DNA of 30,286 bases from a virus. Location: positions 1-30,286 of IMG/VR virus record IMGVR_UViG_3300036398_002140; one strand, written 5' to 3'. Made by a program: the position numbers and the translations under genes. How positions within the stretch are numbered: position 1 is the first letter of the stretch; every line of letters begins with the position of its first letter. Below are positions 1,346-18,238 of the stretch, piece by piece. The notes below the pieces were generated by a model that worked only from the letters and a program-made list of their open reading frames with translations, was not told the DNA's origin and ran no database searches.

Positions 1346-1360
1346 AATATATTCCTTTAA

Positions 1361-2183: not shown

Positions 2184-2202
2184 TCTTAACAACTATTAAG
2201 TA

Positions 2203-2466: not shown

Positions 2467-2522
2467 TGTGTTTCCTCATGATATTAAACATAAATGTAAT
2501 ACTGGCTTTTACCAGTCCAATT

Positions 2523-2551: not shown

Positions 2552-2604
2552 ATAATGGCGAACCGAGCCAGACAGGGGGTGGGTCACAAAATAGACCTCG
2601 GTTG

Positions 2605-2688: not shown

Positions 2689-2738
2689 GAAAAAGTGACA
2701 AAGATTATGGTAAAATGTGGGTCAGGGTCGGATTTTGG

Positions 2739-3218: not shown

Positions 3219-3885
3219 TTCGGAACTGTTCCCTTAGATCTTTAAGCTGGTTGATGTGTTCGTCAACATAGGCATGATATACGTGGGTCTTTCCTGTTTC
3301 TTCTGTGGCAATAAAGATTAAAACATGGTCGATTTTCATACCAGTTCTCTCTTCCCACATTTTAGCATAACCAGCACCTTGGCAAAAGTAGTTGGTTATT
3401 TGTTCCTTGGACTTTTCTTTACGAGAAGTCTTCCAGTCCATTACTGCATATTTAGCCATATACTTCCCTATACAGTCAACCGTGCCAGCGACTTCTAATT
3501 CGTCTGACCATAGTCTGGCTTCTACTGCTAGGATTTCTTCCAAGCCCATGTCAATTTTCTCTTTGAGAGTATTGAACATTTGTATTGCGTCGGGCATGGC
3601 TTTTTGTGCTACATTAGCAAAGCCCTCTGTATCGTCGAGGATATAGTGTTCTGCTAATGTATGCATCGATGTACCACGGCTGGATGCCATACGCGATACA
3701 CGATTTGCTTCAGCTTCGCCTACTCTGGCTCGCCATGCTTTAATACCATCGCGACCGAGCAGACCTGTAACACCAGTCAGGGAAGGATAATTTTTCCCTG
3801 ATGGTGTCTTATAGGTGCGCTTACCATCTTCATTAACCTGCACGATTTGCGGGATAACGAATTCATCAATTCTATTTTTGAACAT
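3202..3885 (-). CDS. PD-(D/E)XK exonuclease (Cas4/RecB-like), 227 aa
   Basis: Motifs in order are RGTSMHTLAEHYI (His75), a Glu near 122 in AVEARLW, GTVDCIG with Asp137, and AVMDWKTSRK with Asp150 and Lys152, then a Gln/Tyr-rich helix ITNYFCQGAGYAKMW. This is the full active site of the PD-(D/E)XK exonuclease group used by phages for DNA degradation and recombination. The ATG at 3885 overlaps the upstream stop in TGATG and is preceded by AAGAAG. A GTG one codon earlier is possible but less likely. It is coupled to the CxxCxxCC protein upstream and to the SprT-like protease downstream. Confidence 0.8.
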   Translation of the reverse strand: MFKNRIDEFVIPQIVQVNEDGKRTYKTPSGKNYPSLTGVTGLLGRDGIKAWRARVGEAEANRVSRMASSRGTSMHTLAEHYILDDTEGFANVAQKAMPDAIQMFNTLKEKIDMGLEEILAVEARLWSDELEVAGTVDCIGKYMAKYAVMDWKTSRKEKSKEQITNYFCQGAGYAKMWEERTGMKIDHVLIFIATEETGKTHVYHAYVDEHINQLKDLREQFRNENHY

Positions 3886-4313
3886 CACTTCTTCTTTGGT
3901 CCGTAGAACCCGAGTTGTATATCTTGAAGGAATTTTTTAGATTCGGTTGTTTTTAACTGTCTTGCTTCTACTACTGAAGAAACTCCCAAGTCTTCCTTCG
4001 CTTTCTTCACACGTTCAACTTTTACCAACGCTTGTTCTGGTGTAATCTCGTTTCGGAGAACTCGCTTTAACAAAGCACACTTATAGCCAGAACAGGTCTT
4101 TGGTTTTTTGGGATCTTCGTAGATCGAACAACTGCCATTTATATGCATAGAACAAGGAGTAAGAAACACATGATTAATTTGATTGTCTTTCTTCTTGGTT
4201 TCTAAGCCAAGTGAACCCATATAGTCGGCTTCTTCTTTTGAACAAACGACATTGCCGAACAATGTTCCGTCGCAACACATACCGCAAGCAACACAGAGAT
4301 CAGACGGAGTCAT
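3885..4313 (-). CDS. CxxCxxCC (YkgJ-type) metal-cluster protein, 142 aa
   Basis: The N-terminus carries CVACGMCC (Cys7, 10, 13, 14). Later PCSMHINGSCSIYE and PKTCSGYKC supply more cysteines, which is the pattern of the zinc or iron-chelating CxxCxxCC family (PF03692). The rest is a Lys-rich helical tail. The family lacks a settled biochemical role. ATGA coupling to the upstream periplasmic-protein gene and TGATG coupling to the PD-(D/E)XK nuclease show that it is translated as part of this operon. PD-(D/E)XK nucleases of the Cas4 kind contain Fe-S clusters, so a helper role is conceivable, but that is speculation. Confidence 0.75.
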   Translation of the reverse strand: MTPSDLCVACGMCCDGTLFGNVVCSKEEADYMGSLGLETKKKDNQINHVFLTPCSMHINGSCSIYEDPKKPKTCSGYKCALLKRVLRNEITPEQALVKVERVKKAKEDLGVSSVVEARQLKTTESKKFLQDIQLGFYGPKKK

Positions 4314-4777
4314 ACTTTAGTCGTAAAGTAGCATTGACCGACACGAGCAATAGCTTGCTTCATGTCATCAAGTTCGAAGCCAAACACGAAGTCACTATAA
4401 TTTCCAACCGCATAAACTTTCATTGCGGTAGAATTAACGATGATGTCTAGATTTTCAACTGAACCTTCGAGTTCCACGATAACGGTGCTAGAGTCGCGCG
4501 AATAAACCATAACTGGAACACGGATCCCGTCAAAGTCAGCTTCAGCTGCGCTCTCGAAAGGATTTTCCTTACTGGCTTTGATATTCCACTTTGCATTAAT
4601 TGCGGAAAGATAGAGTTTATCGTCAAACCAACCAAATCGTGTTTCGCCGATATTACCTTTGCCCCAATCAATTCCGTTTCTTGCGATACAGAACTCTGAT
4701 TCGGGAATCATCTCCCAGTCCGCTGCGACGGACTGGGAGGATACTGCAAGCATTGCTGCTAATAAAATCTTTTTCAT
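4310..4777 (-). CDS. Exported protein of unknown function, 155 aa
   Basis: A clean signal peptide is visible: MKK, then a hydrophobic LLAAMLAVSSQS and the cleavage-type VAA-D near residue 19. The mature part is mainly predicted strand, contains two Cys (about 30 and 149) that could form a periplasmic disulfide, and has no motif I recognise. It opens a run of coupled genes (CxxCxxCC protein, nuclease, SprT-like). Its place outside the cytoplasm does not match theirs, so operon sharing may reflect timing rather than function. Confidence 0.65.
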   Translation of the reverse strand: MKKILLAAMLAVSSQSVAADWEMIPESEFCIARNGIDWGKGNIGETRFGWFDDKLYLSAINAKWNIKASKENPFESAAEADFDGIRVPVMVYSRDSSTVIVELEGSVENLDIIVNSTAMKVYAVGNYSDFVFGFELDDMKQAIARVGQCYFTTKV

Positions 4778-4783
4778 ATATTC

Positions 4784-5488
4784 CTATGCCAGACCCATCT
4801 CCGTCTTAGTGACAATATAATCGCGAACCAAACCAGATCGTACGATATCGGTTTCTAAAAACTCAATGTGGTCAAATTTTTTCATTTTATCTAAGATACT
4901 CATGAAGTCATGAATACCGCTCTTTTCTTTTGCATTCTTTAAGTCAGTTTGGCGGAAGTCACCGCAAAAGACAATCTTTGTCCCTTCGCCTACACGAGTG
5001 ATAACTGAGTCAAGTTCCGCGAACGAAAGGTTCTGAATCTCGTCTACAATCACTACTGCATTGTCAATAGTCAAACCACGAATAAACGAGGTTGACATGA
5101 ATTCTATTACATTTTTATTCTTGAGAATATCGTAAGCGTCACCACGACACAGCAGGTTGTTTACGATTTCTCGATAGGGTTGCTCATAAACTCTTAGTTT
5201 CTCATCCAATGTTCCTGGCATAAAGCCAACGTCGCGTGTTGCCACTGCGCTTCTAACAATGTAGATCTTTTTGAATGTACCATATTCCAACATTTCCTTT
5301 AATGCAAGGTATAACGAAATAAATGTTTTACCTGTACCAGCAATTCCGTGTAGCAGTAGGTGGTTATCATAAAACGAGCGAAACACTATATTCTGCGTTT
5401 CCGTCATCGGATTGATCTCTCTTAACTCTAAACCTAAACTATTAATCTTTACCACTTTCTTAGCTGCTGTTTTGGCGGTTCTTTTCAT
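4784..5488 (-). CDS. phoH: PhoH-like ATPase, 234 aa
   Basis: Walker A GIAGTGKT is at residues 48-55 and Walker B VVIVDEIQN is around 145-153. The FCGDFRQTD sensor-like motif near 195 and the FIRGLTIDNA segment are typical of PhoH. The length fits the compact phage form. PhoH is a P-loop ATPase or helicase-like protein very common in marine phages; its true role in infection is unsettled. A Lys-rich N-terminus precedes the domain. It is followed closely by the exported protein and preceded by a 75-residue phage protein. Confidence 0.9.
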   Translation of the reverse strand: MKRTAKTAAKKVVKINSLGLELREINPMTETQNIVFRSFYDNHLLLHGIAGTGKTFISLYLALKEMLEYGTFKKIYIVRSAVATRDVGFMPGTLDEKLRVYEQPYREIVNNLLCRGDAYDILKNKNVIEFMSTSFIRGLTIDNAVVIVDEIQNLSFAELDSVITRVGEGTKIVFCGDFRQTDLKNAKEKSGIHDFMSILDKMKKFDHIEFLETDIVRSGLVRDYIVTKTEMGLA

Positions 5489-5521
5489 TGAAGATCCTTG
5501 TTGTTTTAGTTTATGGAATCA

Positions 5522-5749
5522 TCACCAATCGTTTATTGTGTTCCCCCTGTGTTTGGATTTAATCTTTTGTAGAACTTCGCGGAAACCAGCGTCTGGCTTC
5601 TTAGCGTCGTTATAGCTGAATGTTGTTGGCGTTTCATGCCATTGTATGACGTGCGGATTCTCCGAGAGGAATGTTTCCATCTCAGAGATCTTCATAAACT
5701 TTTCGAAGACTTCTTCAGTTTCAGTGTTTTTGAGATTGTACAGTGGCAT
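5522..5749 (-). CDS. Conserved small phage protein, 75 aa
   Basis: The start MPLYNLKNTETEEVFEKFMKISEM and the end KPDAGFREVLQKIKSKHRGNTINDW follow a pattern I know from T4-like marine phages. It resembles an FmdB-type beta hairpin that has lost its cysteines. There is no proven function. It overlaps the upstream membrane-protein gene by 29 bases and precedes PhoH by 33 bases. Confidence 0.7.
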   Translation of the reverse strand: MPLYNLKNTETEEVFEKFMKISEMETFLSENPHVIQWHETPTTFSYNDAKKPDAGFREVLQKIKSKHRGNTINDW

Positions 5750-5972
5750 CTTTAATCTGCTCTATAAAGTGATCAATTAACTCATCGTTAAGTGCTGGAA
5801 GAATCTGTTTTGCTTGTTTGCGTGTTAGGGTTTTCTCGTGTATGAGCTGAGAAAGAACTACGCTTCCGCCACAAATAGAACCCTTGATAAAACCAGCGGT
5901 CTTACCTTGTCGGTGCATGTACCAACCATAAATTGCTAGGATAATCAAAGCAAATACAATTGTCATTTCCAT
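5721..5972 (-). CDS. Small N-terminally anchored membrane protein, 83 aa
   Basis: One membrane helix (about 4-19, IVFALIILAIYGWYM) is followed by a cytoplasmic helical domain with HEKTLTRKQAKQILPALNDELIDHFIEQ. I do not recognise the family. Its start overlaps the end of the 57-residue gene, and its end overlaps the next gene by 29 bases, so it belongs to the compact 7773-5522 operon. Confidence 0.65.
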   Translation of the reverse strand: MEMTIVFALIILAIYGWYMHRQGKTAGFIKGSICGGSVVLSQLIHEKTLTRKQAKQILPALNDELIDHFIEQIKDATVQSQKH

Positions 5973-6136
5973 CGATAATCCTCTTCGTCATCAAACTCAT
6001 CTTCGGTATATTCCAGCAGATGGTCGAGATCGTTAGACCTAAGCGCATTTTTGAGATTTCGTTCTTTGCGTTCAGGACGTTTTGGTTTTTTGATGTTGTC
6101 TTCCCTTTCGTGAAAAGATGCGCGCTTTATAGTCAT
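5963..6136 (-). CDS. Short charged protein, 57 aa
   Basis: The reading frame starts MTIKRASFHEREDNIKKPKR and ends in a strongly acidic stretch, EYTEDEFDDEEDYRWK: a basic first half and an acidic second half. The start overlaps the upstream stop in ATGA, and the stop lies inside the start region of the membrane protein, so translational coupling at both ends argues that it is real although short. The function is unknown. The split charge suggests a protein- or nucleic-acid-binding accessory factor. Confidence 0.6.
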   Translation of the reverse strand: MTIKRASFHEREDNIKKPKRPERKERNLKNALRSNDLDHLLEYTEDEFDDEEDYRWK

Positions 6137-6606
6137 ACAGTTTGTTTCTTAGCTTCTTTTTCAGCTTTAGCGTTATCTTCTGCAACTTGCTTGGGAAACA
6201 ATTGCGGATATGCCTTCCTAGCAACATGAGCCGACATCGGTTTCCACGGTGTACGATGCTCCTTCATAGCAAGAATTAATTTGGCATCCTCGGGATGTAA
6301 TCCTTCGAGGTACTGAATGAACAATTGTTCGCGACGAACCTTGGCGATGTTGTTTCCAGGAAAGAAAAGATACATCTTCTTCCACTCTGAATACAGACGC
6401 TCTTCTAGGTCGGTAGCTTGTTCTTGAGTTGCTTGTTTGTAGGGAGGTTCGCCAGAAGGAAGATCTAAGTTGATATCTTCGTCGAACATAACTTTAAGGA
6501 CACCTTGTAGGACTACACTATCATGTTTGTGTAGGTGTTCTACTCGGGATTGTACATCGGGAAGCGCAGCAGCTTCCTCGAGAATTTGGGAGATGCGTTT
6601 CATCAT
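6133..6606 (-). CDS. DUF6433-type conserved phage protein, 157 aa
   Basis: The middle section VRREQLFIQYLEGLHPEDAKLILAMKEHR and the earlier VLKVMFDEDINLDLPSGEPPYK match what I remember of the DUF6433 family, which is widespread in T4-like marine phages. It is helical and soluble with a Lys/Ala-rich tail. No function is established. In these phages it often sits beside RNase H and other replication genes, as here. It starts in a TAATG overlap with the end of the RNase H gene. Confidence 0.78.
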   Translation of the reverse strand: MMKRISQILEEAAALPDVQSRVEHLHKHDSVVLQGVLKVMFDEDINLDLPSGEPPYKQATQEQATDLEERLYSEWKKMYLFFPGNNIAKVRREQLFIQYLEGLHPEDAKLILAMKEHRTPWKPMSAHVARKAYPQLFPKQVAEDNAKAEKEAKKQTV

Positions 6607-7460
6607 TAGAATTCCGAAATGTTTTCCATTAAAAACTTTAGTTTGTGTTTGATAAAGTAGTTGAACAGTTGGTTCCTATCTTTACCTGCTTCCGAGTCAT
6701 ACTCTTGGATAATCCTATCCTTAATCTCACTCGGTATATTATTTAGTGAAATCAAAAGCTCGTTTCGTTTCCAGTTGCGTTGCTCTTCGTCTTTCAACTG
6801 CTCGAACGGAGTAGTCATAAAGTAGTCAAGTCGCTTCTGGGTGATGATACCCTGTCGCGTACCAGTAACAAGGCAGTCATCCTTAGACAGGATGTTCGGA
6901 ATTCCGTCGCTGGTATCGCCACGGATAATATGCTCGCGCAGGAACTCGTCGGCATCCGTACAGCTCAACATGCGTTTGCGAGTAGGATCGTATTGCTCGA
7001 CGTTATTATAGCATTGCAGTTGTTTGAAGTCTTTGTCACCAGAGACAATCATAATCTTTTCAGCATTACCAAACTCAACACCGAACTTGTGTACGAGGAC
7101 ACCGATAACATCATCGGCTTCAGCGTTATCTACGTGAATGACACGATACGGAAAGTATGCTTTCAACTCCTCACGGACTTTAGCGAATGTGTCAAACACA
7201 GTCGTCCAGTCCATATCAGAAGCATCACGGCTCTTGCGACGGTTGGCTTTGTAGTATGGAAACGCGCCACGACGCCAGCTGCTGGAGTCACAGGCGATAA
7301 CCATCTCACCATAGTCGGCTGCAAACTTCTTACGGATATTACGCAATCCGTTCAGAATCATGTGGCGAAGCAGATCTTCATCTAGCTTGGCATTTTGATG
7401 AGAGCCAAGCTGAGTCATCAGATTAGCAATCATCACTTGTTGTAAATCAATAATAAACAT
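6606..7460 (-). CDS. rnh: T4-type RNase H (FEN-1 family 5'-3' nuclease), 284 aa
   Basis: The acidic metal-binding motifs of the FEN/T4 RNase H family appear in order: an N-terminal IIDLQQ, ACDSSSWRRGAFPYYKANRRK, NAEADDVIGVL, SGDKDFKQL and RGDTSDGIPN. The protein ends ISEF, much as T4 RNase H ends. The enzyme removes RNA primers and adjacent DNA behind the fork, working with gp32 and the clamp. Length is close to that of T4 (305 residues). The gene lies two bases after the upstream 103-residue gene and is coupled to DUF6433. Confidence 0.9.
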   Translation of the reverse strand: MFIIDLQQVMIANLMTQLGSHQNAKLDEDLLRHMILNGLRNIRKKFAADYGEMVIACDSSSWRRGAFPYYKANRRKSRDASDMDWTTVFDTFAKVREELKAYFPYRVIHVDNAEADDVIGVLVHKFGVEFGNAEKIMIVSGDKDFKQLQCYNNVEQYDPTRKRMLSCTDADEFLREHIIRGDTSDGIPNILSKDDCLVTGTRQGIITQKRLDYFMTTPFEQLKDEEQRNWKRNELLISLNNIPSEIKDRIIQEYDSEAGKDRNQLFNYFIKHKLKFLMENISEF

Positions 7461-7461
7461 T

Positions 7462-7773
7462 TTATTCTACCATTTCATGGAAATCTTCTGCAGTTATTTG
7501 CAGAGGATGTACGATACCTCGTTGACGAAGCAACATAGAATACATAGCTTCGCGGAACAGGACATAGTCTTTTACATTAACATCTAGCGGTTTGATACCA
7601 CGATTTACCAAAATAACCCATGCAGCTTCGAGCGCAAGATCAGCAATGTCGGTGACTTCACCGTATGCGTTTGCGAACTGGTCTACCAAATCAGCCACTT
7701 TCTTACTCGTGTCGTTCTCTTCTTGGATTGCTTTGAAGCGATCCGAAACATCAATTACATTATTGTCACTCAT
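7462..7773 (-). CDS. Hypothetical protein, 103 aa
   Basis: A soluble, mildly acidic protein with a predicted helix-rich body (SKKVADLVDQFANAYGEV, ALEAAWVILVNRG) and a C-terminal segment FREAMYSMLLRQRG. I do not recognise the family. Its start overlaps the end of the 85-residue gene in ATGA, and RNase H follows after two bases, so it is part of the replication operon. Confidence 0.6.
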   Translation of the reverse strand: MSDNNVIDVSDRFKAIQEENDTSKKVADLVDQFANAYGEVTDIADLALEAAWVILVNRGIKPLDVNVKDYVLFREAMYSMLLRQRGIVHPLQITAEDFHEMVE

Positions 7774-8027
7774 AGGTATTTCGCCTTTCTTCCTCGCTTC
7801 ATTGGCACGACTGGTTCTTCGATCTCGTCGATCATTTCATCGCGCGGATCGCGGAAAGATAGCGGTAGATCGGTGCCAGCATTTATCTTTACTGTATAAC
7901 CCAGCTCGCGCCAGCTGACAGCGTGTTGAATAGCAGTTGTTTTATCATTATAGTCTAGTTCTAAGCAATGACCTTGGCGTGGTCGCTTGTGATAAAAGAT
8001 TTGTACCGTCCAGTATTGTTTACGCAC
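7770..8027 (-). CDS. Hypothetical protein with GTG start, 85 aa
   Basis: Starts at GTG 8027-8025, which overlaps the stop of the small membrane gene, so coupling decides the start. The N-terminal half is strand-rich (YWTVQIFYHKRPRQGHCLELDY), then a helix and a basic tail ending in KRGRKAKYL. The basic tail may contact nucleic acid. No family recognised. Confidence 0.55.
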   Translation of the reverse strand: MRKQYWTVQIFYHKRPRQGHCLELDYNDKTTAIQHAVSWRELGYTVKINAGTDLPLSFRDPRDEMIDEIEEPVVPMKRGRKAKYL

Positions 8028-9799: not shown

Positions 9800-11827
9800 T
9801 TATTTGGAAGTCGCTCGGTAAATACCGTCCCAGCCATCTTTTCGCTTCATTCCGCTAATTCGCTCAATCATGATATCATAGTATTCAGCCATCTTTCCAT
9901 CAAAATGGAACTTTAATTGTTCGGCTGTCGCGATCGCAAGTTTGAACTCTTGGTTGTAATAATACTCCAAGAACAATTTGTGTTTATTGATTCCAGCTTT
10001 GTCATCAGGAACAACGGTGAAAATATGTACACCCTCTGTCTTTCCTTTTACCGCAATGTAGTCCAGCTCAATAATCGGGAACTCGTCTTCAACATATTCA
10101 GCAGTTTTTGGACCAATGATTAACTTAACACCATAGGACTTACTTTGTCCTTCTAATCTTGCAGCCAAGTTGACACCGTCGCCCAAGCAAGTATAATCGA
10201 AACGCTGAACAGACCCCATATTACCCACAACAACAACATCAGTGTTAATGCCAAGTCCCATACCAAATGCAGGAATCCCTTCTTTGGATATTTCTTCATT
10301 AAATTTCTCCAGGTCACCTAGCATAGCTAAACCTGTACGCAAAGCATTCTTCGCGTGTTGGGCATCATCAAGAGGAGCATTCCAAAAAGCCATCTGAGCG
10401 TCGCCAATGTATTTGTCTAGCGTACCCTCGTTCTCAATAATCTTCTGTGTCATCGCAGTCATGTAACGATTCATAATTTTAGTCAGACCCTGTACGTCTT
10501 TTCCGTAGTGTTCTGAAATAGTTGTAAAGCCACGAACGTCAGTAAACATAATTGACAGTTCGCGTGATTCGCCACCTAGTTGTAGCAGATCTGGGTTTTC
10601 TTGTAGCTTCTCAACCATCGCTGGTGACAAGTATGTACCGAACTGCTTCTTAATCTGTTGCTTGAGTAGGAAGTTCTCGAGGAACTTAGCAAATGAAGCA
10701 TGAGCGAATATAACAAGCATGCCTAGAACTGGTAGCGAAGCATCAAGTAGCAGATACTCAGTTTTCCAGTAGTGATATGATGCATAACCAAACCCACCAG
10801 CAATTAGAATAACCAACGGAAGAACTAGTTTCATTGGTGCTTTATAAACAGCCAGAATAATTAACAGACCGACGAATAGAATAATAACCAGCTCAAGGAA
10901 GTCAGCGTAGTCAGGGCGAACGATTGTGTTGCCATTCAGAACTGTTTGTAATAGATTAGCCTGAACTTCATGCGGATACATTGAGCCGACAGAAGTAGGA
11001 ACTGGGTTGGCTACACCCTCAGCGGTGACACCCCAGATAAGAAACTTGCCAGCTGTATTTTCAGGTGTGATGTCAGCAGCAGAGATAGAGTCAAACTTAT
11101 TCCAATAAGAAATATAGACAGAGCCATCAGCAGTTGTTTTAATTGGCTCAAACTTAGGAATGCGAACAGCTTCAACACCAGCTTCACCAACTTTCATTTG
11201 ATACGAGATATCACCAGCAGCGACGCGAATAGTTTCAAGCGCAACTGATGGATAGATTTGCTCATTAGCGCCAACGACCATTGGTAGTTTGCGGATTGTA
11301 CCATCAACGTCACCGATAGTAGAGGATACACCTACACCGCTTGACGCTTCAGCTAGAATTGTTACTGGCGGTAGAATACCAGACCAGCTGTTTACATAAT
11401 CAAATGGATTGCCGCCGAGAGTTGCGGTTCCTACGTGTGGACCAAGACCTTCAATAGATTGGTCAGTTGGTGCTGACGAAATGATGGTGGCTCTTCGCGC
11501 GAGCGCGTCCGCGAATACTTGGTCTTTACCGAAGCGATCTTCTTCTGAATAGATAACAGTAAATACGCTGATGCTGTCTTCTGCAGTTCTATCTAAAAGA
11601 TTAGCAAACTTATCGCGCGACCAAGACCATTGACCGTATTCTTTAATTGCTTTCTCGTCGATATTAACCAGTAGAACATCGCTAGACTTAATCTGCTCGT
11701 GGCTACGTTGTAGCGAATCAAAGTAAGTTAGTCGTGTGGCTTCAACCAAGAATGGGTCATAGAAGCGCAGGGCGACCAAGAGTCCGAGTGTAATTAATGC
11801 TAGATACCACTTTGTTAGGAATTTCAT
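9800..11827 (-). CDS. CHASE2-domain membrane adenylate cyclase (class III), 675 aa
   Basis: An N-terminal membrane helix (about 8-24) leads to a periplasmic CHASE2 sensor (about 30-300), then three membrane helices (about 311-328, 333-352, 359-378), a short linker and a class III cyclase domain (about 420-605). The catalytic set is complete: metal Asp430 (FTDVRGFT) and Asp476 (KYIGDA), Lys472 and Thr546 at the purine-specifying positions, Asn553 (VNLAAR) and Arg557. The product should be cAMP; Thr in place of the usual Asp occurs in bacterial adenylate cyclases of this class, so cGMP cannot be excluded. The gene overlaps the FecR gene by four bases, and it ends the operon before a strong terminator. 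In bacteria CHASE2 cyclases often neighbour FecR-domain genes, so the two probably form a sensing pair. Confidence 0.92.
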   Translation of the reverse strand: MKFLTKWYLALITLGLLVALRFYDPFLVEATRLTYFDSLQRSHEQIKSSDVLLVNIDEKAIKEYGQWSWSRDKFANLLDRTAEDSISVFTVIYSEEDRFGKDQVFADALARRATIISSAPTDQSIEGLGPHVGTATLGGNPFDYVNSWSGILPPVTILAEASSGVGVSSTIGDVDGTIRKLPMVVGANEQIYPSVALETIRVAAGDISYQMKVGEAGVEAVRIPKFEPIKTTADGSVYISYWNKFDSISAADITPENTAGKFLIWGVTAEGVANPVPTSVGSMYPHEVQANLLQTVLNGNTIVRPDYADFLELVIILFVGLLIILAVYKAPMKLVLPLVILIAGGFGYASYHYWKTEYLLLDASLPVLGMLVIFAHASFAKFLENFLLKQQIKKQFGTYLSPAMVEKLQENPDLLQLGGESRELSIMFTDVRGFTTISEHYGKDVQGLTKIMNRYMTAMTQKIIENEGTLDKYIGDAQMAFWNAPLDDAQHAKNALRTGLAMLGDLEKFNEEISKEGIPAFGMGLGINTDVVVVGNMGSVQRFDYTCLGDGVNLAARLEGQSKSYGVKLIIGPKTAEYVEDEFPIIELDYIAVKGKTEGVHIFTVVPDDKAGINKHKLFLEYYYNQEFKLAIATAEQLKFHFDGKMAEYYDIMIERISGMKRKDGWDGIYRATSK

Positions 11828-12915
11828 TTCTTCTGCCTTATAATAATTGTATTGCTGTCACCACCATTGATGACCACATTGAACTCTTTACCATCAAGAT
11901 TAAAGATAATGTTGTAAGCTGTTTTCTCATCAAGCACTAATTTAATCTTTCCGTTGTTATCCTTAGATATAGTTATAATATCTTTATTTAATACTGTTAG
12001 CAAACCTGTCTGCGCGTCAAGTCCGATATCTGTACCTGTAATTTCAGCAGCAGTGCGAACCTCACCCAACTTCGCTTCTTGTAACTTATCTACTTCAATC
12101 ATAACTGGGATAATGTCAGCCAGATAATCTACTTCAAGATAGTTAATGTCAATATCATTAAACTCTAGCGCGTCTCTTTCTTGTTCGATTGCTAGGTAGT
12201 CTACGTCAAGTTCGTTGTAAGCAAGCGCATCTTCCTCTAGTATCATCTCATCTTCTTCCTGCTCTACTACTTTAGGAGGATTAACAATAAGCATATTGTT
12301 GATCTGGTCTAAGGAAAGGTCGAGGATGGCTGGTTTAGTTGGAGCTGAGTCGCTCGAGAATGCAACGGTTGACTGCATAGATTTGTTTAGTACCACCGAG
12401 CCACCGTTGGTAGCAACTAAGATTTCACCAGATGGTGCACCGTTCTCATCGGGGAGAAGGATTACTAAACTACGACCGAGTTCGTCGACGGTGATTGTGA
12501 AGTCTGTACCGCGAACTGCGATCTGTGATGTGGGTGTTTTAATTGATACATTTTTCTTATCAATTTTATTCATTTTCCCAGTAGCAAATCTGGCTGTCCC
12601 ACTTGCGAAGTTGACAGCCAATTTGCCTTTACTTGGATTAGGATCGTAAACGAATTCATCTATTACGACTTTACTCTGTTCGGTGACTCGAAGTATCGAG
12701 CCATCTAGGAAATCGATCTTCATACGACCATTTCCTGTTCTTACGTCATCACGCATCTCGATTCCCAGCTGTAATTTAGCTGGGAGCGGAGTCTTTCTTA
12801 CAACTGAACCTGTTCCCTTCAGCTCGGTGATTGAACCAATCTTAGACTCAGCAGCCAGAGGTGCCAGTGTTAGACTGATAAACACAAATGGTAGAAGGAG
12901 TTTGTGCAGTTCCAC
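11824..12915 (-). CDS. Periplasmic FecR-domain protein, 363 aa
   Basis: A signal peptide (MELHKLLLPF..., cleavage near Ala22) precedes a FecR domain (about 50-145) with RTGNGRMKIDFLDGSILRV, a SGTARF strand and the hallmark IKTPTSQIAVRGTDF. A very acidic middle part contains an internal repeat, ALAYNELDVDYLAI (230-243) and ALEFNDIDINYLEVDYLADI (249-268), then a strand-rich C-terminus. It lacks the transmembrane anchor of classical FecR anti-sigma regulators, so it is predicted to be soluble or surface-associated in the periplasm. The start is GTG at 12915, so the whole signal peptide is coded inside the end of the curlin-like gene (68-base overlap). A later GTG would leave a signal peptide without positive charge. 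The ATGA overlap with the cyclase implies coupled synthesis. Confidence 0.85.
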   Translation of the reverse strand: MELHKLLLPFVFISLTLAPLAAESKIGSITELKGTGSVVRKTPLPAKLQLGIEMRDDVRTGNGRMKIDFLDGSILRVTEQSKVVIDEFVYDPNPSKGKLAVNFASGTARFATGKMNKIDKKNVSIKTPTSQIAVRGTDFTITVDELGRSLVILLPDENGAPSGEILVATNGGSVVLNKSMQSTVAFSSDSAPTKPAILDLSLDQINNMLIVNPPKVVEQEEDEMILEEDALAYNELDVDYLAIEQERDALEFNDIDINYLEVDYLADIIPVMIEVDKLQEAKLGEVRTAAEITGTDIGLDAQTGLLTVLNKDIITISKDNNGKIKLVLDEKTAYNIIFNLDGKEFNVVINGGDSNTIIIRQKK

Positions 12916-13564
12916 TAGTTGTACTCTCTATGGTGATTGAGTTGGTTTCAGTTGCGCCAGCCTGTGTAATGTTGAAGTTTGTATAATCGCCAGTGTGGTC
13001 GATGTTTACGCTATGTCCAGCAAAACCAGTTGCGCTTGTTGTTACGTTATTGTAATTACCAACCATTGTGATGGTGCTTTCAGCATTCTCTGAGTTTACA
13101 GTAGCATTGAAGTTATTGTAATCACCAGTAATATCCCATGTGAAAGTAGAACCGTCAGCCACATCAGCTGTACCAACATTCATTAGCAGAGTATTATTTC
13201 CGCCAGTGATATTAATGTCATACTCTGTGTCGTCTGCACTAAACGAACCGTTCGGGTTGTTGTTTAATGTAATTTCGTTATTATCGCCATATCCTAAAAT
13301 GCTTGCTAGGATACCGTTGCCATATAACCAACCATATAGCGAGTTGTTATTACCAGTTTGTGTTATGGTAATATCTTGTTGGTTGCCGTTAAAGTAAAAC
13401 GGTGTTTGACCGTCATCAGAACCTATGGTGTTATTTTCACCAGTTTGTTCCATGACAATTGTAGCCTGTTGACCAACCTGATTAATATAAATCTGGTTGT
13501 CACTAGCTTGACCCAATACTGTACCTGTCATCAAAAGCATCACGAAGAAGATGGCGTTCTTCAT
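12848..13564 (-). CDS. Curlin-repeat (CsgA/CsgB-like) amyloid protein, 238 aa
   Basis: After a signal peptide (1-18, ending VLG) the protein is a run of beta-turn-beta units rich in Asn, Gln, Thr and Ile. Curlin-type pieces INQVGQQATIVMEQTGENN and ITITQTGNNN are followed by units turning on G-x-x-N: residues 41, 71, 93, 121, 147, 169 and 192. That is about seven units. Gln is replaced by Asn/Thr in the later ones. The product is expected to cross the outer membrane through CsgG and fold as an amyloid or as a beta-solenoid at the cell surface. The last 20 residues, with two Cys, overlap the FecR gene and do not follow the repeat. No separate nucleator (CsgB) or CsgE/CsgC is visible. Confidence 0.82.
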   Translation of the reverse strand: MKNAIFFVMLLMTGTVLGQASDNQIYINQVGQQATIVMEQTGENNTIGSDDGQTPFYFNGNQQDITITQTGNNNSLYGWLYGNGILASILGYGDNNEITLNNNPNGSFSADDTEYDINITGGNNTLLMNVGTADVADGSTFTWDITGDYNNFNATVNSENAESTITMVGNYNNVTTSATGFAGHSVNIDHTGDYTNFNITQAGATETNSITIESTTSGTAQTPSTICVYQSNTGTSGC

Positions 13565-13576
13565 TTACTTTTCCTT

Positions 13577-14416
13577 TTATTTGAATTGCCAGTATCCTTT
13601 CGCCTTACCATTTTTGATAAGTTGTAACACTGCTTCTTCTATTGCTTTTTGCGTTGCGATGTTTACAGACTCGTTTTGAGCTGTTCCGTTTTCAACTTCA
13701 ACGAGTGCCGTTCCTGCTTCTACGAAACGAAACACATCCTGCGAGTATCCTACCGACAGAATTGTCTTAGTTGAAATGACATCTATAAGAACTTCGCCTG
13801 TCGCAACCGAAACCAAACGAAGTGAAACTGTAACTGTATCTTTGACATAGCGTTTGGACGCACCGATACCCAAGTATCTTGCACCAGCACCGCCTGTCAT
13901 CGTGTTAGTATCATAACCAACAACTCCACCCTCTATGATTAAACCAGCAAAGAGCAGTGGTGGCAGTTTATTTATACCTTCGCCCTCGTAAGACTCACGA
14001 GTAGACTTAATAAGCTGGCGTTCTTTAGAAAGATTTTCTAATCCTTTGCGCTCTACTACTTGGAACACTTCGCCATAGCCAGCACCGCGAAGAGCGCGAA
14101 TTAGAAACACCTCTGGGGCTTGCGTTACAGCAGTCGAAAACGAAGATAGGTTTTCGCTAGGTTTGCGCTGACCTGTTAAATCAGCAAACGAATAGATCGC
14201 GATCGTCGGCTTCTGGACCACAGGTGGCAGATCTCTGAGTTCTCTATTGAAGACGAACTCTTGAATCTCAGCTTGGTCGATCTTCTGTATATGTAATCCG
14301 TTAAACTTTTCTGATGTCTCTACCACTTTTCCGCCAGCAGCGTGTAGTGTATAGCAACCAGTTAAATTAACCGAAGCAACAGAAACCGCTAATAGGAATA
14401 GTGACGCTCGTAACAT
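13577..14416 (-). CDS. csgG: CsgG-like outer-membrane secretion lipoprotein, 279 aa
   Basis: The lipobox LTGC puts Cys21 as the lipidated residue. The body follows CsgG closely: PTIAIYSFADLTGQ, SSFSTAVTQAPEVFLIRALRG, GLIIEGGVVGYDTNTMTGGAGARYLGIGA, LRLVSVATGEVL and KTILS. CsgG forms the nonameric pore that exports curli subunits. In the constriction loop Phe93 matches Phe56 of E. coli, but the region (KPSENLSSF) is one residue longer, with Ser in place of Asn55 and no clear Tyr51, so the pore eye may differ. The start lies 50 bases inside CsgF, and no later start keeps the lipoprotein signal, so the overlap is real. Confidence 0.93.
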   Translation of the reverse strand: MLRASLFLLAVSVASVNLTGCYTLHAAGGKVVETSEKFNGLHIQKIDQAEIQEFVFNRELRDLPPVVQKPTIAIYSFADLTGQRKPSENLSSFSTAVTQAPEVFLIRALRGAGYGEVFQVVERKGLENLSKERQLIKSTRESYEGEGINKLPPLLFAGLIIEGGVVGYDTNTMTGGAGARYLGIGASKRYVKDTVTVSLRLVSVATGEVLIDVISTKTILSVGYSQDVFRFVEAGTALVEVENGTAQNESVNIATQKAIEEAVLQLIKNGKAKGYWQFK

Positions 14417-14828
14417 CTGTGGGATCCGTTAAATTAGTTATGATAAGTTTTAATACTTCTGCTCCGTTCTCATCAACCGTCGACTGATAGTTAATGTTGT
14501 ATCCTTGTAGGTTAAGCGAACCAGAACCAGTTGCGCCTTCTGCGAATAGATTGGTCACTAGCTGTCTTGATAATTCAGCGTATATTCTTGACTCTACGTT
14601 TTTCAAGAATCGGTTCACAGTTGAGTTGTTTTCCGCTGCGATGGCAGCCTTCAACTCGTCTTCTAATTTCTTGGCGATGGCTTCTTTACGAGAAGTTTCT
14701 TGATTCTCAATAGTTAGATAATGTGATGATGTACCCTGTCCGTTGAAGGATGGGCTTTTGAATTGAAAGGTTATATCGCCAGCTAACGCGCTGAAAGGTA
14801 ATAGACTAAGCAGCAGGAGTTTCTTCAT
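14367..14828 (-). CDS. csgF: CsgF-like curli assembly factor, 153 aa
   Basis: Signal peptide MKKLLLLSLLPFSALA is cut before GDITFQFKSPSFNG, which matches the mature CsgF start (GTMTFQFRNPNFGG) that plugs the CsgG pore in E. coli. A helical insert (about 45-85) is followed by the conserved strand block NLQGYNINYQSTVDENGAEVLKLIITNLTD and a final VTIPISGF. Length is near that of CsgF (about 138). CsgF couples secretion to nucleation at the cell surface. AGGAG lies just upstream. Its 3' end encodes the CsgG start in another frame. Confidence 0.9.
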   Translation of the reverse strand: MKKLLLLSLLPFSALAGDITFQFKSPSFNGQGTSSHYLTIENQETSRKEAIAKKLEDELKAAIAAENNSTVNRFLKNVESRIYAELSRQLVTNLFAEGATGSGSLNLQGYNINYQSTVDENGAEVLKLIITNLTDPTDVTSVTIPISGFCCFG

Positions 14829-14875
14829 CAGTCTTCTCCTCTTTCTTTTTCTTTCCGTTAGTCTCTAACAAAAAT

Positions 14876-15166
14876 TCAAGTGTCAGTATTTTTATCAGAC
14901 TTAGGCTTATGCTTATTCGCATGTTTCTCTTCCTCTTTCATTTGTAGGACAACGCTGACTTTTTGTTGCAATCTAATTAAGTCATTATCTAACATACGAA
15001 TACGGTCAATCAATGCAATTAAAATACCGCTGGTTTGTCCAATCAACGGTGTTAATTCTTTTGTAACAAAGCTGTAAATAAAGAATACGAAATATCCCAT
15101 CCCGACCGCAGCGACGATAGGAAAGCCATATTGTTTAATCAACTCAATGACTACATCAGGATTCAT
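14876..15166 (-). CDS. Single-span membrane protein with helical tail (paralogue A), 96 aa
   Basis: One membrane helix (about 13-34, YGFPIVAAVGMGYFVFFIYSF) is followed by an amphipathic helix (TSGILIALIDRIRMLDNDLIRLQQKVSVVLQMK) suited to coiled-coil pairing and a Lys-rich tail. It is a paralogue of the gene at 15330-15617: both have GFPIAAA-type membrane starts and an IIIALxxRxxxxxxDIIR helix. The layout resembles holin-like or membrane-scaffold proteins, without a firm family match. Coupled by ATGA to the 55-residue gene. The product could assemble in the inner membrane under the curli pore, or act in lysis with the neighbouring endolysin. Confidence 0.7.
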   Translation of the reverse strand: MNPDVVIELIKQYGFPIVAAVGMGYFVFFIYSFVTKELTPLIGQTSGILIALIDRIRMLDNDLIRLQQKVSVVLQMKEEEKHANKHKPKSDKNTDT

Positions 15167-15330
15167 TTTGTTTCTCTAAGCGTAGCAATATATTTTTTAT
15201 CTGATACCATATTGCTAAGTGTATCAGCTGTTCTTCTTAGGAACATACTTTCAGTGGTTATGCCATCTTCATTTTCCATAATTCTTGCATAGTCATGCAT
15301 TATAGTAATTAAGTCTTCTAGTGTTGACAT
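15163..15330 (-). CDS. Short soluble protein between the two membrane paralogues, 55 aa
   Basis: The frame starts MSTLEDLITIMHDYARIMEN and ends YIATLRETK, probably two helices with no membrane segment. Its start shares a base with the upstream stop (TAATG) and its stop overlaps the next start (ATGA). This places it firmly in the operon despite its size. No family recognised. It may pair with the helical tails of the flanking membrane proteins, which is a guess from context. Confidence 0.65.
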   Translation of the reverse strand: MSTLEDLITIMHDYARIMENEDGITTESMFLRRTADTLSNMVSDKKYIATLRETK

Positions 15331-15617
15331 TAGTCTCTCCTTGCGTCGTTTTTGCCGTCTGCTCTTGCGAGTCTATCGAGATCTGGTCTTAGACCTAGCG
15401 CAGAACTAACAACCGCATCAACTCGGATGATATCATGATTCATGGTTTTCACACGATTATCTAATGCGATGATTATACCCTGCAACCCTTGGATCTGTTT
15501 TACCACACCAGTCAATATGAACTTAATTACGAAATAGACAAACACGCCAGCAGCCATAGCTGCAGCGATAGGAAATCCAACTTCGGCAATTATCTTAAAT
15601 ATAGCGTCGTAGCTCAT
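15330..15617 (-). CDS. Single-span membrane protein with helical tail (paralogue B), 95 aa
   Basis: First gene of the operon. A membrane helix (about 13-36, VGFPIAAAMAAGVFVYFVIKFIL) is followed by an amphipathic helix LQGIIIALDNRVKTMNHDIIRVDAVVSSAL and a charged tail DRLARADGKNDARRD. It mirrors the gene at 14876-15166 in layout and sequence, so the two arose by duplication. The likely promoter is the late element at 15647-15640, 23 bases upstream. Function is unknown; a holin-type or pore-supporting role is possible. Confidence 0.7.
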   Translation of the reverse strand: MSYDAIFKIIAEVGFPIAAAMAAGVFVYFVIKFILTGVVKQIQGLQGIIIALDNRVKTMNHDIIRVDAVVSSALGLRPDLDRLARADGKNDARRD

Positions 15618-15638: not shown

Positions 15639-15652
15639 CTATTTATAAATAG
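15639..15652. promoter_or_regulatory. Bidirectional T4-type late promoter (palindrome)
   Basis: CTATTTATAAATAG is a perfect 14-base palindrome that contains TATAAATA on the plus strand (15644-15651) and on the minus strand (15647-15640). TATAAATA is the T4 late -10 element read by gp55/gp33-modified polymerase. It lies between the divergent endolysin (15703, +) and the curli operon (15617, -), so both should be late genes. Confidence 0.82.
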
Positions 15653-15702: not shown

Positions 15703-16317
15703 ATGAGTTTAGTTGCATTACAAAAGAAAATCGGTGTTACCGCTGACGGTGCATTTGGTCCAGGAACATTAAAAGCTGCGATGGCATTCTATAAAATGTC
15801 ACCAGTTCGCGCTGCGCATTTCTTCGCGCAGACTGCCCATGAGTCAGGTAATTTCAAAGCATTCTCTGAAAACCTAAACTACTCGGCAGATGGCTTAACC
15901 AAAATCTTCGGTAAATACTTCGACGCTGCAGCTGCAGCAAAAGCTGCGCGCAATCCAGAAAAGATTGCTAACAGAGTTTATGCTAATCGTATGGGCAATG
16001 GAAACGAAGCTTCGGGCGACGGCTGGAAGTATCGTGGTCGTGGCGCTCTTCAGTTGACTGGTAAAGACAACTATAAAGCATTTGCTGATTATCTAAAGAA
16101 GCCAGAAATCATGGACAACCCAGACTTGGTTGCTACCGAGTACTCGTTCGAGTCCGCGATCTTCTTCTTTGAAAAGAATAAACTATGGGCTATTTGTGAC
16201 CAAGGCGTCGGCGACGCAGCGATTACCGCATTGACAAAAAGAATCAATGGCGGTACTCACGGTCTTGACGATAGAAAAGAGAAAACCAAAAAGTTCGCCG
16301 CAATGGTGGGCGCATAA
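15703..16317 (+). CDS. GH19 chitinase-like endolysin, 204 aa
   Basis: A short N-terminal peptidoglycan-binding-like segment (1-35, LQKKIGVTADGAFGPGTLKAAM) is followed by a glycoside hydrolase family 19 domain. Key parts are FFAQTAHESGNF with catalytic Glu47, NLNYSADGL, NRVYANRMGNG, and WKYRGRGALQLTGKDNY with the substrate-binding loop. It has no signal peptide, so release needs a holin or membrane collapse. AAAGGAG is placed well before ATG 15703. It is, with the next peptide, the only plus-strand unit in the window and is driven by the palindromic late promoter. Confidence 0.92.
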   Translation: MSLVALQKKIGVTADGAFGPGTLKAAMAFYKMSPVRAAHFFAQTAHESGNFKAFSENLNYSADGLTKIFGKYFDAAAAAKAARNPEKIANRVYANRMGNGNEASGDGWKYRGRGALQLTGKDNYKAFADYLKKPEIMDNPDLVATEYSFESAIFFFEKNKLWAICDQGVGDAAITALTKRINGGTHGLDDRKEKTKKFAAMVGA

Positions 16318-16327: not shown

Positions 16328-16417
16328 ATGGAAAAGGTAACAGCATTCGTTCTAGCTTATAATAAAGAAATCGTTCTACTAGTCGTCGGCTTTGTTCTCG
16401 GCGCAGTTATTTTTTAA
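16328..16417 (+). CDS. Membrane peptide behind the endolysin, 29 aa
   Basis: MEKVTAFVLAYNKEIVLLVVGFVLG... has one membrane span (about 15-29) and follows the endolysin stop by 10 bases with AAGGAG in between. Its position is that of a lysis accessory (holin- or spanin-like), but the length is very small and no family is recognised. Its stop overlaps the end of the convergent glycosyltransferase gene. Confidence 0.5.
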   Translation: MEKVTAFVLAYNKEIVLLVVGFVLGAVIF

Positions 16418-17415
16418 GATTTCAATGTAATAAACTTGGAAGCTGGCGTACTGGCTTTCAAACCCTCAAGGAGAGCTTGCCATTGGTAGGCTCTCCTTTT
16501 CCAATTAAAGCGCAGGTCGGCATATGCTTTAACGTAGTTGGCTTCTTCAACGTGCCTACCAGCCTTTACATCTTCAATAGTTTCATCTAGGACTGCTAGA
16601 TGACGACCAGCGTGTTCGTTAGGATCTTCGTGCCAGCCATACATTCTGGTTAATGCGCCAGAGGTGTCGTAGAGTGCACCATAATTAGGATGAATACAGA
16701 TTACACCTGCACTCATTGCTTCAATAAGAGAGATGCACGACGATTCAACCCAGATATTTGGATAAGCAAAAATATCGGCATCCTGCAGGGCTGCGCGTAT
16801 TTCTGCGTTCGGAACCGACCCATGATAGTTAATCTTCGGGTGATTCTTGCATCGTTCAAACAAGGCTTCATACTGTGCGTCACGTTCGCCCCAACCATAA
16901 ATCTTGAATGACGAATAAACATCCAGTTGAATGTTGTCGTGCTTCTCACATAGTTTCTCGAACACAGGAACTAGGAGTTCTAGTCCACGGTGCGGTGTGG
17001 TGTGATAGATAATACGAATAATACCATCAGTTCTAGAAGGCTTGACTTTATATTCAATAGGTTCAATTGCGTTCTCTAAAACAGAAGAACGATGATAAGG
17101 AACACCGAGATACTTGTTGAACATATCAGCTTGCCAGTTCGAGTTATACACGATGTGGTCAAACTGTTGCCATGTTTCTTTTAGGTGAGTCGCCGCAGGA
17201 TCCCAAGGTAGATCCTGATGCCAATAGATTTTAATTTTGTTTGGATCCAGATCCTCGTGCACGCGCGAGATGAAGATTTGAAAATTATCCAGCAATCCTT
17301 CAGGCATGCGCGAAGCAAGCGCATGCTTCATCAGCTCTGTACCGCCCATGGCGTTTGGTGCAATTTTATCTTCAGCGAACGCCACAATTATCTCTCCATT
17401 CTGTAACCCATTCAA
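16414..17415 (-). CDS. GT4-type glycosyltransferase, 333 aa
   Basis: A GT-B glycosyltransferase of family 4 type: N-terminal APNAMGGTELM, a middle IIRIIYHTTPHRGLELLVPVFEKL, and the donor-binding stretch NIWVESSCISLIEAMSAG with the E-x7-E motif (Glu224, Glu232). It moves a sugar from a nucleotide donor to an unknown acceptor, perhaps a virion protein, phage DNA or host surface sugar. The ATG at 17415 overlaps the epimerase gene by 44 bases. A GTG at 17385 with GGAGAG six bases upstream is an alternative start that would drop ten residues. It is the last gene of the glycan island. Confidence 0.85.
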   Translation of the reverse strand: MNGLQNGEIIVAFAEDKIAPNAMGGTELMKHALASRMPEGLLDNFQIFISRVHEDLDPNKIKIYWHQDLPWDPAATHLKETWQQFDHIVYNSNWQADMFNKYLGVPYHRSSVLENAIEPIEYKVKPSRTDGIIRIIYHTTPHRGLELLVPVFEKLCEKHDNIQLDVYSSFKIYGWGERDAQYEALFERCKNHPKINYHGSVPNAEIRAALQDADIFAYPNIWVESSCISLIEAMSAGVICIHPNYGALYDTSGALTRMYGWHEDPNEHAGRHLAVLDETIEDVKAGRHVEEANYVKAYADLRFNWKRRAYQWQALLEGLKASTPASKFITLKS

Positions 17416-18238
17416 TCACTTCTCGGTTAGCTGACCAACCAGGAACATTTGGTTCTTTACACATTACAAACGCAACTTCATAATCACGCGGTTTAGCATG
17501 ATGGTATTTGTGTCTAAATGCTTTCGCGACTTCTAGGATTTGCGTCGCTTTTCCTGTGCCGATATGATAGGTCTTGCCCTCGCTCGATAGATTTCCTACG
17601 ATATGCAACGCATCAATCGTATCATCGATGTGAGTAAAGTCACGCGCTTGTGCGCCAGTACCGTAAACCACTAGCATCTCATCCTTCTCGTACAAGTCAA
17701 TATACTTACGGATGATGGTGGTGTAATCGCCGAGCAGACTTTCGCGCTTCGAGCCGAATACGTTGTAGAACTTAACTACGTCGAAGTTTAGAGCGAAGTG
17801 ACGGCGATATAGCTGAAGCATCTCATCACAGACTACCTTTGAGAAGGTGTATGGGTTGTTTAGCTTGTCAGCGAACTCAGTAGTAGACGACGAAGCAAAG
17901 ATTAGTTTTGTTTTCGGATTAGTCTTCTTGATATACTCACAGACCGCAACAGTTGAGTTATAGTTGTTGAGTAAAGTTTCTTCGCAATGTTCGAACGAGC
18001 GAGCGATGCGCGCGCAGTTAGCGAAGTGAAAGATAATATCGAAGTCTTCGTCACTAGCCTTGAAGAAGGTTTCTACATCTTGAATTAAAGTGACAGCTTG
18101 TTTGTTGATATTAAACAAGTCGCCAGTAGAAAGATTATCCACTACGGTGACGTCATTATGCTCGACTAAACTATCAACTAGATGCGATCCTACGAATCCT
18201 AGACCGCCTGTTACCAAAATCTTTTTATTCTTAATCAT
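17372..18238 (-). CDS. NAD-dependent sugar epimerase/dehydratase (extended SDR), 288 aa
   Basis: Rossmann motif TGGLGFVGSH has the G11-x2-G14-x2-G17 pattern, with a DNLSTG NAD-ribose site (about 34-39) and the catalytic Tyr130-x3-Lys134 (PYTFSK) preceded by SSSTTEF. This is the GalE/UDP-sugar epimerase subgroup. The probable product is an epimerised or modified nucleotide sugar for the adjoining glycosyltransferases. Length is slightly short of the usual 310-330 residues. It follows two glutaredoxin genes closely. Confidence 0.85.
   Translation of the reverse strand: MIKNKKILVTGGLGFVGSHLVDSLVEHNDVTVVDNLSTGDLFNINKQAVTLIQDVETFFKASDEDFDIIFHFANCARIARSFEHCEETLLNNYNSTVAVCEYIKKTNPKTKLIFASSSTTEFADKLNNPYTFSKVVCDEMLQLYRRHFALNFDVVKFYNVFGSKRESLLGDYTTIIRKYIDLYEKDEMLVVYGTGAQARDFTHIDDTIDALHIVGNLSSEGKTYHIGTGKATQILEVAKAFRHKYHHAKPRDYEVAFVMCKEPNVPGWSANREVIEWVTEWRDNCGVR

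Follow-up and report, generated by a model that had tools for sequence, protein, structure and literature searches.

A curli-type secretion operon with FecR and a CHASE2 adenylate cyclase in a viral record: conserved linkage, a curlin-like FecR tail and a proposed export sensor of late infection

Why should a virus carry a curli secretion operon that ends in an adenylate cyclase gene? The question is raised by IMG/VR virus record IMGVR_UViG_3300036398_002140, whose whole stretch of 30,286 bases is called the window here. The operon lies at 9800-15617 on the minus strand. Eight open reading frames (ORFs) run from 15617 down to 9800, spaced by overlaps or by gaps of less than 50 bases, so that the eight densely packed, co-directional genes of a preliminary description of this DNA are confirmed by the ORF list. 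They encode two small membrane proteins (TMa and TMb) with a 55-residue ORF between them, CsgF, CsgG, a curlin-repeat protein, a FecR-domain protein and the cyclase (Table 1). Matches to known phages at the DNA level extend over 3-4% of the operon and of window positions 1-8000. The module is real and of a kind known since 2022, and new anatomical facts make its mechanism testable, namely near-total linkage, the FecR tail, a kinase-less membrane pair, late motifs, contigs of 202-349 kb and three cellular operons. We lean towards a reading, deduced from sequence, in which it would be a phage curli export line of late infection, with a FecR-CHASE2 sensor that makes cyclic AMP (cAMP).

The linkage was surveyed by four scans of IMG/VR, each limited to the best 80 relatives (for CsgG of 263, for FecR of at least 546, for TMa of at least 598 and for the cyclase of at least 592), a limit that under-samples distant relatives; near copies of the window are present in the first two sets. 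Counts of gene order, membrane-pair genes and second curlins omit six loci that repeat a contig, and anchored counts omit loci without room. All CsgG-anchored loci with room on both sides carry CsgF, curlin, FecR and cyclase genes (25 of 25). All 29 FecR-anchored loci with room carry CsgF, CsgG and curlin, and 25 of them also carry the cyclase, which is lacking in L099, L107, L119 and L122. Since the other four genes are thus found in 25 of 25 and 25 of 29 loci, the homologues are not scattered without linkage, and the proposal of one joint system holds. On one strand, the order CsgF-CsgG-curlin-FecR-cyclase is kept in 86 of the 87 loci that carry all five genes in the first two scans; in the exception, L124, all that was found of a cyclase is one piece, which matches weakly and lies on the opposite strand. 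Of 97 loci, 57 have a second curlin gene between FecR and cyclase; the window has none there. Upstream of csgF, in 117 loci with 1.5 kb available, at least two membrane-pair genes are present in 96 cases, one in 18 and none in 3. With TMa as anchor, 41 loci had 9 kb available to either side; TMb and cyclase are found in all 41, FecR in 38 and CsgG in 35, with the same result under stricter scores, and in the 6 without CsgG the fetched stretch stops inside a curlin or FecR gene. The 35 loci with CsgG have the membrane pair on the opposite strand (23 cases), upstream on the same strand (8 cases) or downstream (4 cases). Cyclase-anchored loci with 6.5 kb of room (28 cases) gave TMa and TMb in 28 each, and CsgF, CsgG and FecR in 27 each. 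The cyclase is the most constant neighbour of the membrane pair, and because this company is kept even when the pair lies on the other strand, the two may share a function.

A Pfam search upheld the family calls made earlier for CsgG, CsgF, FecR, CHASE2 and the cyclase. By sequence prediction the parts that define type VIII (curli) secretion, i.e., a CsgG pore, CsgF and a curlin-repeat substrate, are each present. The CsgG of the window matches solved CsgG structures at 3e-41 and has the lipobox LTGC, as read from its sequence, with C21 kept in at least 90% of 31 rows. An N-terminal stretch of CsgF aligns to the CsgF N-terminus of PDB 6l7a (E 0.014). The curlin is the weakest family call, weak for the window's own copy and good for the family. 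PF07012 matches 15 of 32 aligned curlin proteins (best 2.1e-7), a five-row curlin profile leads to PDB 8c50, a 'curlin associated repeat-containing protein' (1.9e-9), and in record G792, whose CsgG is 98% identical to that of the window, the PF07012 cut-off is passed together with the neighbours in frame. The window copy contains the curlin core motif [ILVFTM]x[ILVFTM]x[QH]xGxx[NT] 3 times where shuffles give 0.06, and its mature part is free of K and R; GxxN occurs 6 times, which by itself is no better than chance (p 0.15). The structure model is beta-rich and confident (mean predicted local distance difference test score, pLDDT, 89.3; predicted template modelling score, pTM, 0.82; 17 strands of at least 3 residues). 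A Foldseek search of this model against the PDB gave nothing at E<=0.001, with the CsgA fibril at rank 41 (E 2.0). Of the curlin with seven units put forward earlier, the family assignment stands on the PF07012 and 8c50 matches, and the seven units were not reproduced.

The FecR protein starts with a signal-like helix (residues 2-21, hydrophobic peak from residue 6), followed by the domain. Residues 53-210 of its model match the cell-surface signalling domain (CSSD) of PupR, 6ovk (Z 15.9, 2.6 A, 136 aligned), and the model also matches 4m0n (Z 14.0). It may be noted that the periplasmic FecR/CSSD domain of FecR-type anti-sigma regulators is found here (PF04773, 6ovk), and that the cytoplasmic sigma-binding N-terminus of such regulators is absent from the window FecR, which has the signal-like start instead. 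These two observations bear in opposite directions on the suggestion of an uptake pore (Zaragoza-Solas et al., PMC7029224) or of uptake and iron (Wittmers et al., PMC9599517), whereby the pore, or an iron-linked regulator with FecR as ferric-citrate sensor, would feed the infected cell. The PupR-type fold agrees with it, but the hydrophobic signal-like start in place of an anti-sigma part does not, nor does the curlin gene that is present in 29 of the 29 FecR-anchored loci with room, and we find such a role very unlikely.

After a poorly predicted middle part, the FecR model has a confident strand run at residues 306-361, and the protein ends in a pattern close to Y-x-I-x-[LI]-x-Q ... N-x-I-x-I-x-Q. 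One alignment (A9) has I359 and Q361 in every one of its 28 rows; in the second (A12) Q361 is found in 28 of 28 and I359 is nearly invariant. Motif counts were made on distinct C-termini of complete frames at 60 bits or more. Of the 93 distinct copies in the first set, 41 have a strict form of the tail motif. A relaxed form, [ILVMF]x[ILVMFT]x[QE] with its end among the last 5 residues, was devised after the first set had been inspected. It was found in 65 of 83 copies of a second FecR set that was then unseen, and in 90 of 93 and 69 of 87 copies in the final selection (9.0 and 5.9 in shuffles). With Q required within the last 12 residues, a form picked after both sets had been inspected, the FecR counts are 90 of 93 and 82 of 87 distinct copies against about 6 each in shuffles. 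Curlins have this last form in 71 of 86, 13 of 17, 25 of 82 and 32 of 48 cases. The counts for the other proteins are 0/106 and 2/84 (CsgG), 8/93 and 12/82 (CsgF), 9/67 and 0/125 (cyclase), 0/70 and 0/97 (TMa), and 0/83 and 3/109 (TMb). We read the FecR tail as a putative curlin-like end strand, an ending that is otherwise frequent only in curlins. In cellular loci it is kept in L165 and L166 and degenerate in G778. We infer that the tail binds curlin, and as such it is a candidate for the physical link behind export sensing by FecR-CHASE2, itself a plausible proposal.

The same tail would also suit a FecR that acts mainly as a CsgB-like anchor or nucleator, its domain holding the envelope and its curlin-like end seeding or capping the fibre, with the cyclase sensing the envelope independently. 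A weak likeness of the N-terminal part of FecR to the cell-surface anchoring domain of an antifreeze protein, 5ix9 (E 0.019; Z 7.0), points the same way. However, the cyclase follows FecR in 25 of the 29 FecR-anchored loci, and four FecR-CHASE2-cyclase neighbours without a curli gene within 1.5 kb favour signalling; an anchor of this kind is in our view unlikely. As a separate observation, L205, L208 and others have the FecR module within very long alphaproteobacterial frames (e.g., of 5,659, 6,679 and 6,913 residues), which may be giant adhesins.

The CHASE2 domain, membrane helices and catalytic residues of a CHASE2 class III adenylate cyclase are all found in the last gene, and the best-matching solved proteins are adenylate cyclases. 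Asp430, Asp476, Arg557 and Lys594 are conserved in 30 of 30 rows and Asn553 in 24 of 30; at the adenine site, 12 rows have T, 12 have S and 6 have D. We take these residues to be the two metal-binding Asp, the Arg, the Lys, the Asn and the adenine site of the enzyme. Six phage cyclases (L003, L074, L126, L132, L141 and L153) have D at the adenine site and S in place of Asn, and their product or activity may differ. Similar cyclases are frequent without curli genes, as 84 of 190 genomes of the class of G002 match at 1e-40 (G002 included). Among 30 fetched cyclase loci, FecR lies within 1.5 kb in 5, one of which is the curli operon of G002. FecR adjoining a CHASE2 sensor is a known pairing (PMC5192318).

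The timing of the operon is suggested by its upstream motifs. Two copies of TATAAATA, presumably the T4 late-promoter consensus, face in opposite directions within the 85 bases that separate the endolysin gene from the operon. In all, 4 copies occur in the window against 1.43 expected, and as many are seen in 6 of 100 shuffles. On counting the exact motif in distinct 120-base upstream stretches, with the expectation obtained by shuffling, it was found before TMa as the first gene in 24 of 81 cases (1.5 expected), before CsgF in 27 of 99 (2.5 expected), before the second curlin in 5 of 39 (0.9 expected) and before FecR in 1 of 84 (1.1 expected). None was found before CsgG (0/96), the first curlin (0/101), the cyclase (0/61), TMb as a later gene (0/69) or TMa as a later gene (0/8). 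The enrichment before TMa and CsgF lends support to the late expression predicted in the preliminary description.

The membrane pair consists of paralogues, as was claimed for them (about 30-32% identity, common family phrog_18771). At E<=1, TMa has no Pfam match apart from YvrJ (0.15) and TMb has 0 Pfam families. TMa ends in DGKNDARRD, with D91, R93 and D95 invariant in 16 of 16. Published work labels the genes ahead of csgF as histidine kinases (HK; PMC9599517). No kinase family is found at E<=1 in TMa and TMb of the window (95 and 96 residues), and the 25 of 34 Pfam families listed for 49 relatives of the pair include no kinase; for the small proteins of the window we reject a histidine kinase identity, as they have no kinase domain. 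In HTVC008M, a phage covered by PMC9599517, the genes at the 'HK' place belong to the membrane-pair family of the window; from this place we infer that the published HK genes are of the same family. The 55-residue ORF between the pair has no significant family (Pfam, phrog) and its phmmer matches are confined to near copies of the window, namely L004-L010 and L084-L088 (with CsgG or FecR 96-100% identical).

The only functional hint for the pair, from sequence matching, is the holin family phrog_4898, with weak matches from 23 of the 49 members (best 4.6e-5), besides single matches to spanin families. This brings in the possibility that CsgG-CsgF is reused for lysis timing, as a pinholin or gated secretin, with the holin-like pair working with an endolysin; a pore for lysis timing was proposed for phage Melnitz by Buchholz et al. 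2022 (PMC9004378). A role of the pore and membrane proteins at lysis was also put forward in the preliminary description, and it gains from the fact that in the window lineage the operon faces a divergent GH19 endolysin gene with back-to-back late-promoter motifs. Yet two of the holin matches span fewer than 20 residues of membrane helix, the stretches fetched from HTVC008M and Melnitz show no annotated lysis gene beside the operon, the curlin and the N-terminal motif of CsgF are retained, and a simple holin leaves no place for a sensor cyclase and FecR. We consider a lysis role quite unlikely.

We favour instead the export reading, in which a phage copy of the type VIII (curli) secretion operon would be turned on late from a T4-type promoter. 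The curlin would cross the inner membrane by Sec and leave through CsgG-CsgF. In the periplasm, FecR would meet curlin through its own curlin-like C-terminal strand and report to the CHASE2 domain of the cyclase in what state export or assembly is, and the making of cAMP would thereby keep pace with export. The amyloid may then change the surface of a cell that is bound to die, so as to block rivals or to retain nearby cells or particles. A bolder version, which we offer tentatively and think somewhat improbable, is that FecR is an amyloid-reading sensor whose tail imitates a curlin end and docks on periplasmic curlin, with FecR-CHASE2 turning backed-up or ended export into cAMP. Phages whose genomes differ widely in size would then share this wiring with a few bacteria, and the membrane pair would be a needed, so far unrecognised part of the phage version.

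Several results weigh against the export reading. The four scans share contigs, those with TMa and cyclase in particular, and hold related copies, so the linkage counts are not independent; FecR copies are likewise kin to one another, so neither are the tail counts. The window curlin has no Pfam curlin match at E<=1 in the protein scan, and with PF07012 in a DNA search it reaches 14.8 bits, below the cut-off of 20.7. CsgE was found in 0 of 7 records searched, two complete phage genomes included, an absence already reported for phage and alphaproteobacterial modules (PMC9599517). As regards the tail, the relaxed motif is also above chance in the cyclases of the first set (18 of 67 against 4.8 expected). 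An ungapped curlin-repeat profile favours the FecR tail in just 15 of 28 cases (p<0.05) and CsgF tails in 8 of 31 (CsgG 1/37, cyclase 0/27, TMa 0/19, TMb 1/31), and the best FecR window lies inside the last 10 residues in just 4 of 28. Of the 30 cyclase loci, 25 lack a FecR gene within 1.5 kb. The late motif in its exact form is missing from 57 of the 81 upstreams with TMa first and from 18 of 18 with TMb first. Also, clumping was not observed among Melnitz-infected cells by Buchholz et al. (PMC9004378).

Table 1. Positions of the operon genes and of adjoining features in the window
Feature	Position	Strand	Basis
TMa, one-helix membrane protein, 95 aa, paralogue A	15330..15617	-	phrog_18771 5e-34; one hydrophobic peak
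ORF between the membrane pair, 55 aa	15163..15330	-	lineage-specific
TMb, one-helix membrane protein, 96 aa, paralogue B	14876..15166	-	phrog_18771 5.7e-34; one hydrophobic peak
CsgF, 153 aa	14367..14828	-	PF10614 1e-14
CsgG outer-membrane pore lipoprotein, 279 aa	13577..14416	-	PF03783 7.8e-51
Curlin-repeat protein, presumed substrate, 238 aa	12848..13564	-	family PF07012, profile match PDB 8c50
FecR-domain protein, 363 aa	11824..12915	-	PF04773 3.7e-13
CHASE2 membrane adenylate cyclase, class III, 675 aa	9800..11827	-	PF05226 6.1e-37, PF00211 1.5e-16
Putative T4-type late promoter motif TATAAATA ahead of the operon	15640..15647	-	motif search; presumed meaning
Opposed TATAAATA ahead of the endolysin gene	15644..15651	+	motif search
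GH19 endolysin, divergent neighbour, probably outside the module	15703..16317	+	PF00182 3.5e-7; phrog_181 endolysin 2.2e-66

Elsewhere in the window, glycosyltransferase-like and nucleotide-sugar-epimerase-like genes adjoin the endolysin gene (16414-18238, minus strand) and may serve surface modification. A permuted tmRNA and eleven tRNA genes lie at 23533-26180 (minus strand); a two-piece tmRNA is reported for Melnitz as well (PMC9004378). Positions 26423-27295 (minus strand) match integrase family phrog_7685 weakly (E 1.2e-4), and no glutamine riboswitch was found above the Rfam threshold in the window.

How widely is the module carried? On searching deposited phages, FecR was found in 6 records (two of HTVC008M and four of Melnitz). 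The CsgG search returned the same six and an unannotated Salmonella phage record of 1,499 bases (OR851715.1), and the cyclase search the same six and two Acinetobacter phage records. The CsgG of OR851715.1 is 39% identical to that of the window, and this record is perhaps host DNA. Contigs of up to 349 kb were obtained from the TMa and cyclase scans. Of these we checked ten of 202-349 kb, together with the 84-kb G792, and the terminase large subunit family phrog_2 was matched in 11 of 11; as phrog_2 also matches 11 of 14 control genomes, the virus label of the large contigs rests on IMG/VR together with this match. A protein scan of four of the terminase proteins backed the phrog_2 matches (five regions fetched), and a second terminase model, PF17288, was found in 0 of the 11 records. 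The whole set of membrane pair, CsgF, CsgG, curlin, FecR and cyclase is present in 8 of the 10 contigs of 202-349 kb, and in the remaining two (L351 and L385) the fetched stretch stops before CsgG.

The preliminary description had also taken the full set to be undescribed. This did not survive a look at the literature, as Wittmers et al. 2022 (PMC9599517) reported the order HK-CsgF-CsgG-CsgA/B-FecR-(CsgA/B)-AC (AC, adenylate cyclase) in podo- and myoviruses, pelagiphages, and HTVC008M and Melnitz carry the operon. A partial operon with sibling capture had been put forward (PMC7029224), and curli genes were reported in one T4-like virus contig assigned to Bacteroidetes (PMC7198788). Melnitz is described as being without curlins in PMC9004378; its record annotates two, and the PF07012 cut-off is passed in both. 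Neither the FecR tail nor the re-reading of the membrane pair was found in titles and abstract openings of the open-licence literature, among the matches listed.

The module is also found in cells. When genome contigs were scanned with an alignment of 31 phage CsgG proteins, 22 loci were obtained, many of which look like phage pieces in bins because the membrane pair is present. As one such group, L163, L164, L168-L174 and L182, in bins named Pelagibacter, Flavobacteria or Rhodobacteraceae, have a phage-type operon and are probably phage contamination; most have the membrane pair, which was not seen on the 3-kb L169. On the other hand, two Caulobacteraceae bins (L165 and L166) have CsgF-CsgG-curlin-curlin-FecR-cyclase without the membrane pair, with amidohydrolase and acyl-CoA dehydrogenase genes nearby in L166, and a third cellular genome (G778) has CsgF-CsgG-curlin-FecR-cyclase on a 705-kb contig, again without it. 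It is stated in PMC9599517 that FecR and cyclase do not lie within bacterial T8SS (type VIII secretion system) operons; since L165, L166 and G778 carry both, this statement has exceptions. In a gammaproteobacterial bin (L176:8493-13740) we observed curlin-CsgF-CsgG-curlin-curlin-FecR with no cyclase in reach.

In the CsgG tree the phages group with L165, L166, G778 and L176 (96/97), to the exclusion of the remaining 37 cellular rows; once six mostly long rows are left out, those other cells split off at 100/100. The three bacterial operons with FecR and cyclase lie inside the phage group as sister to L118 (100/98). A single phage clade is not rejected by the approximately unbiased test (p-AU 0.094), which was run without six rows (five long-branched or meeting long branches, plus L177). 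A cyclase tree made by a quick method gives the same split from 28 other CHASE2 cyclases (Shimodaira-Hasegawa-like approximate likelihood ratio test, SH-aLRT, 100). An origin strictly from bacteria to phage was dropped; the bacterial three nest in the phages, but the p-AU of 0.094 is compatible with one phage clade, and the cyclase tree decides for neither.

An amyloid export line with a second-messenger sensor would mean that phages invest several kilobases in the surface and signalling of a cell that is to be killed. With a conserved FecR tail and a constant membrane pair, the puzzle left by the earlier papers is accessible to small, direct experiments. The known range of the module, and the picture of its direction of movement, are broadened by similar operons on 202-349 kb viral contigs and in the three bacterial genomes.

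Among known systems, the pelagiphage T8SS module (PMC9599517) has the same order of HK gene(s), CsgF, CsgG, CsgA/B, FecR and adenylate cyclase. The window differs in that it has no second curlin between FecR and cyclase, adds the 55-residue ORF and has genes without a kinase domain at the 'HK' place. HTVC008M and Melnitz (PMC7029224, PMC9004378) have the same operon, with CsgG 52% and 46% and cyclase 39% and 43% identical to those of the window, respectively; unlike the window, each has a second curlin-repeat gene, and the neighbours differ. The BiofilmReg operon (PMC5192318) similarly places a signal-peptide FecR-domain protein beside a CHASE2 membrane sensor, but its output is a kinase rather than a cyclase and, as described there, it has no curli genes. 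With bacterial curli operons the window shares adjacent CsgF, CsgG and curlins, whereas 22 of 22 further csgG loci (5 + 17, with flanks of several kb; CsgG is found in 6 of 385 genomes of the class of G002 and in 42 of 398 of the order) have no nearby FecR or CHASE2 cyclase, apart from one 10-bit cyclase fragment in L229. Finally, PupR/FecR anti-sigma regulators share the periplasmic signalling-domain fold with the window FecR, which has no cytoplasmic N-terminal part and whose C-terminal strands finish in a curlin-like strand.

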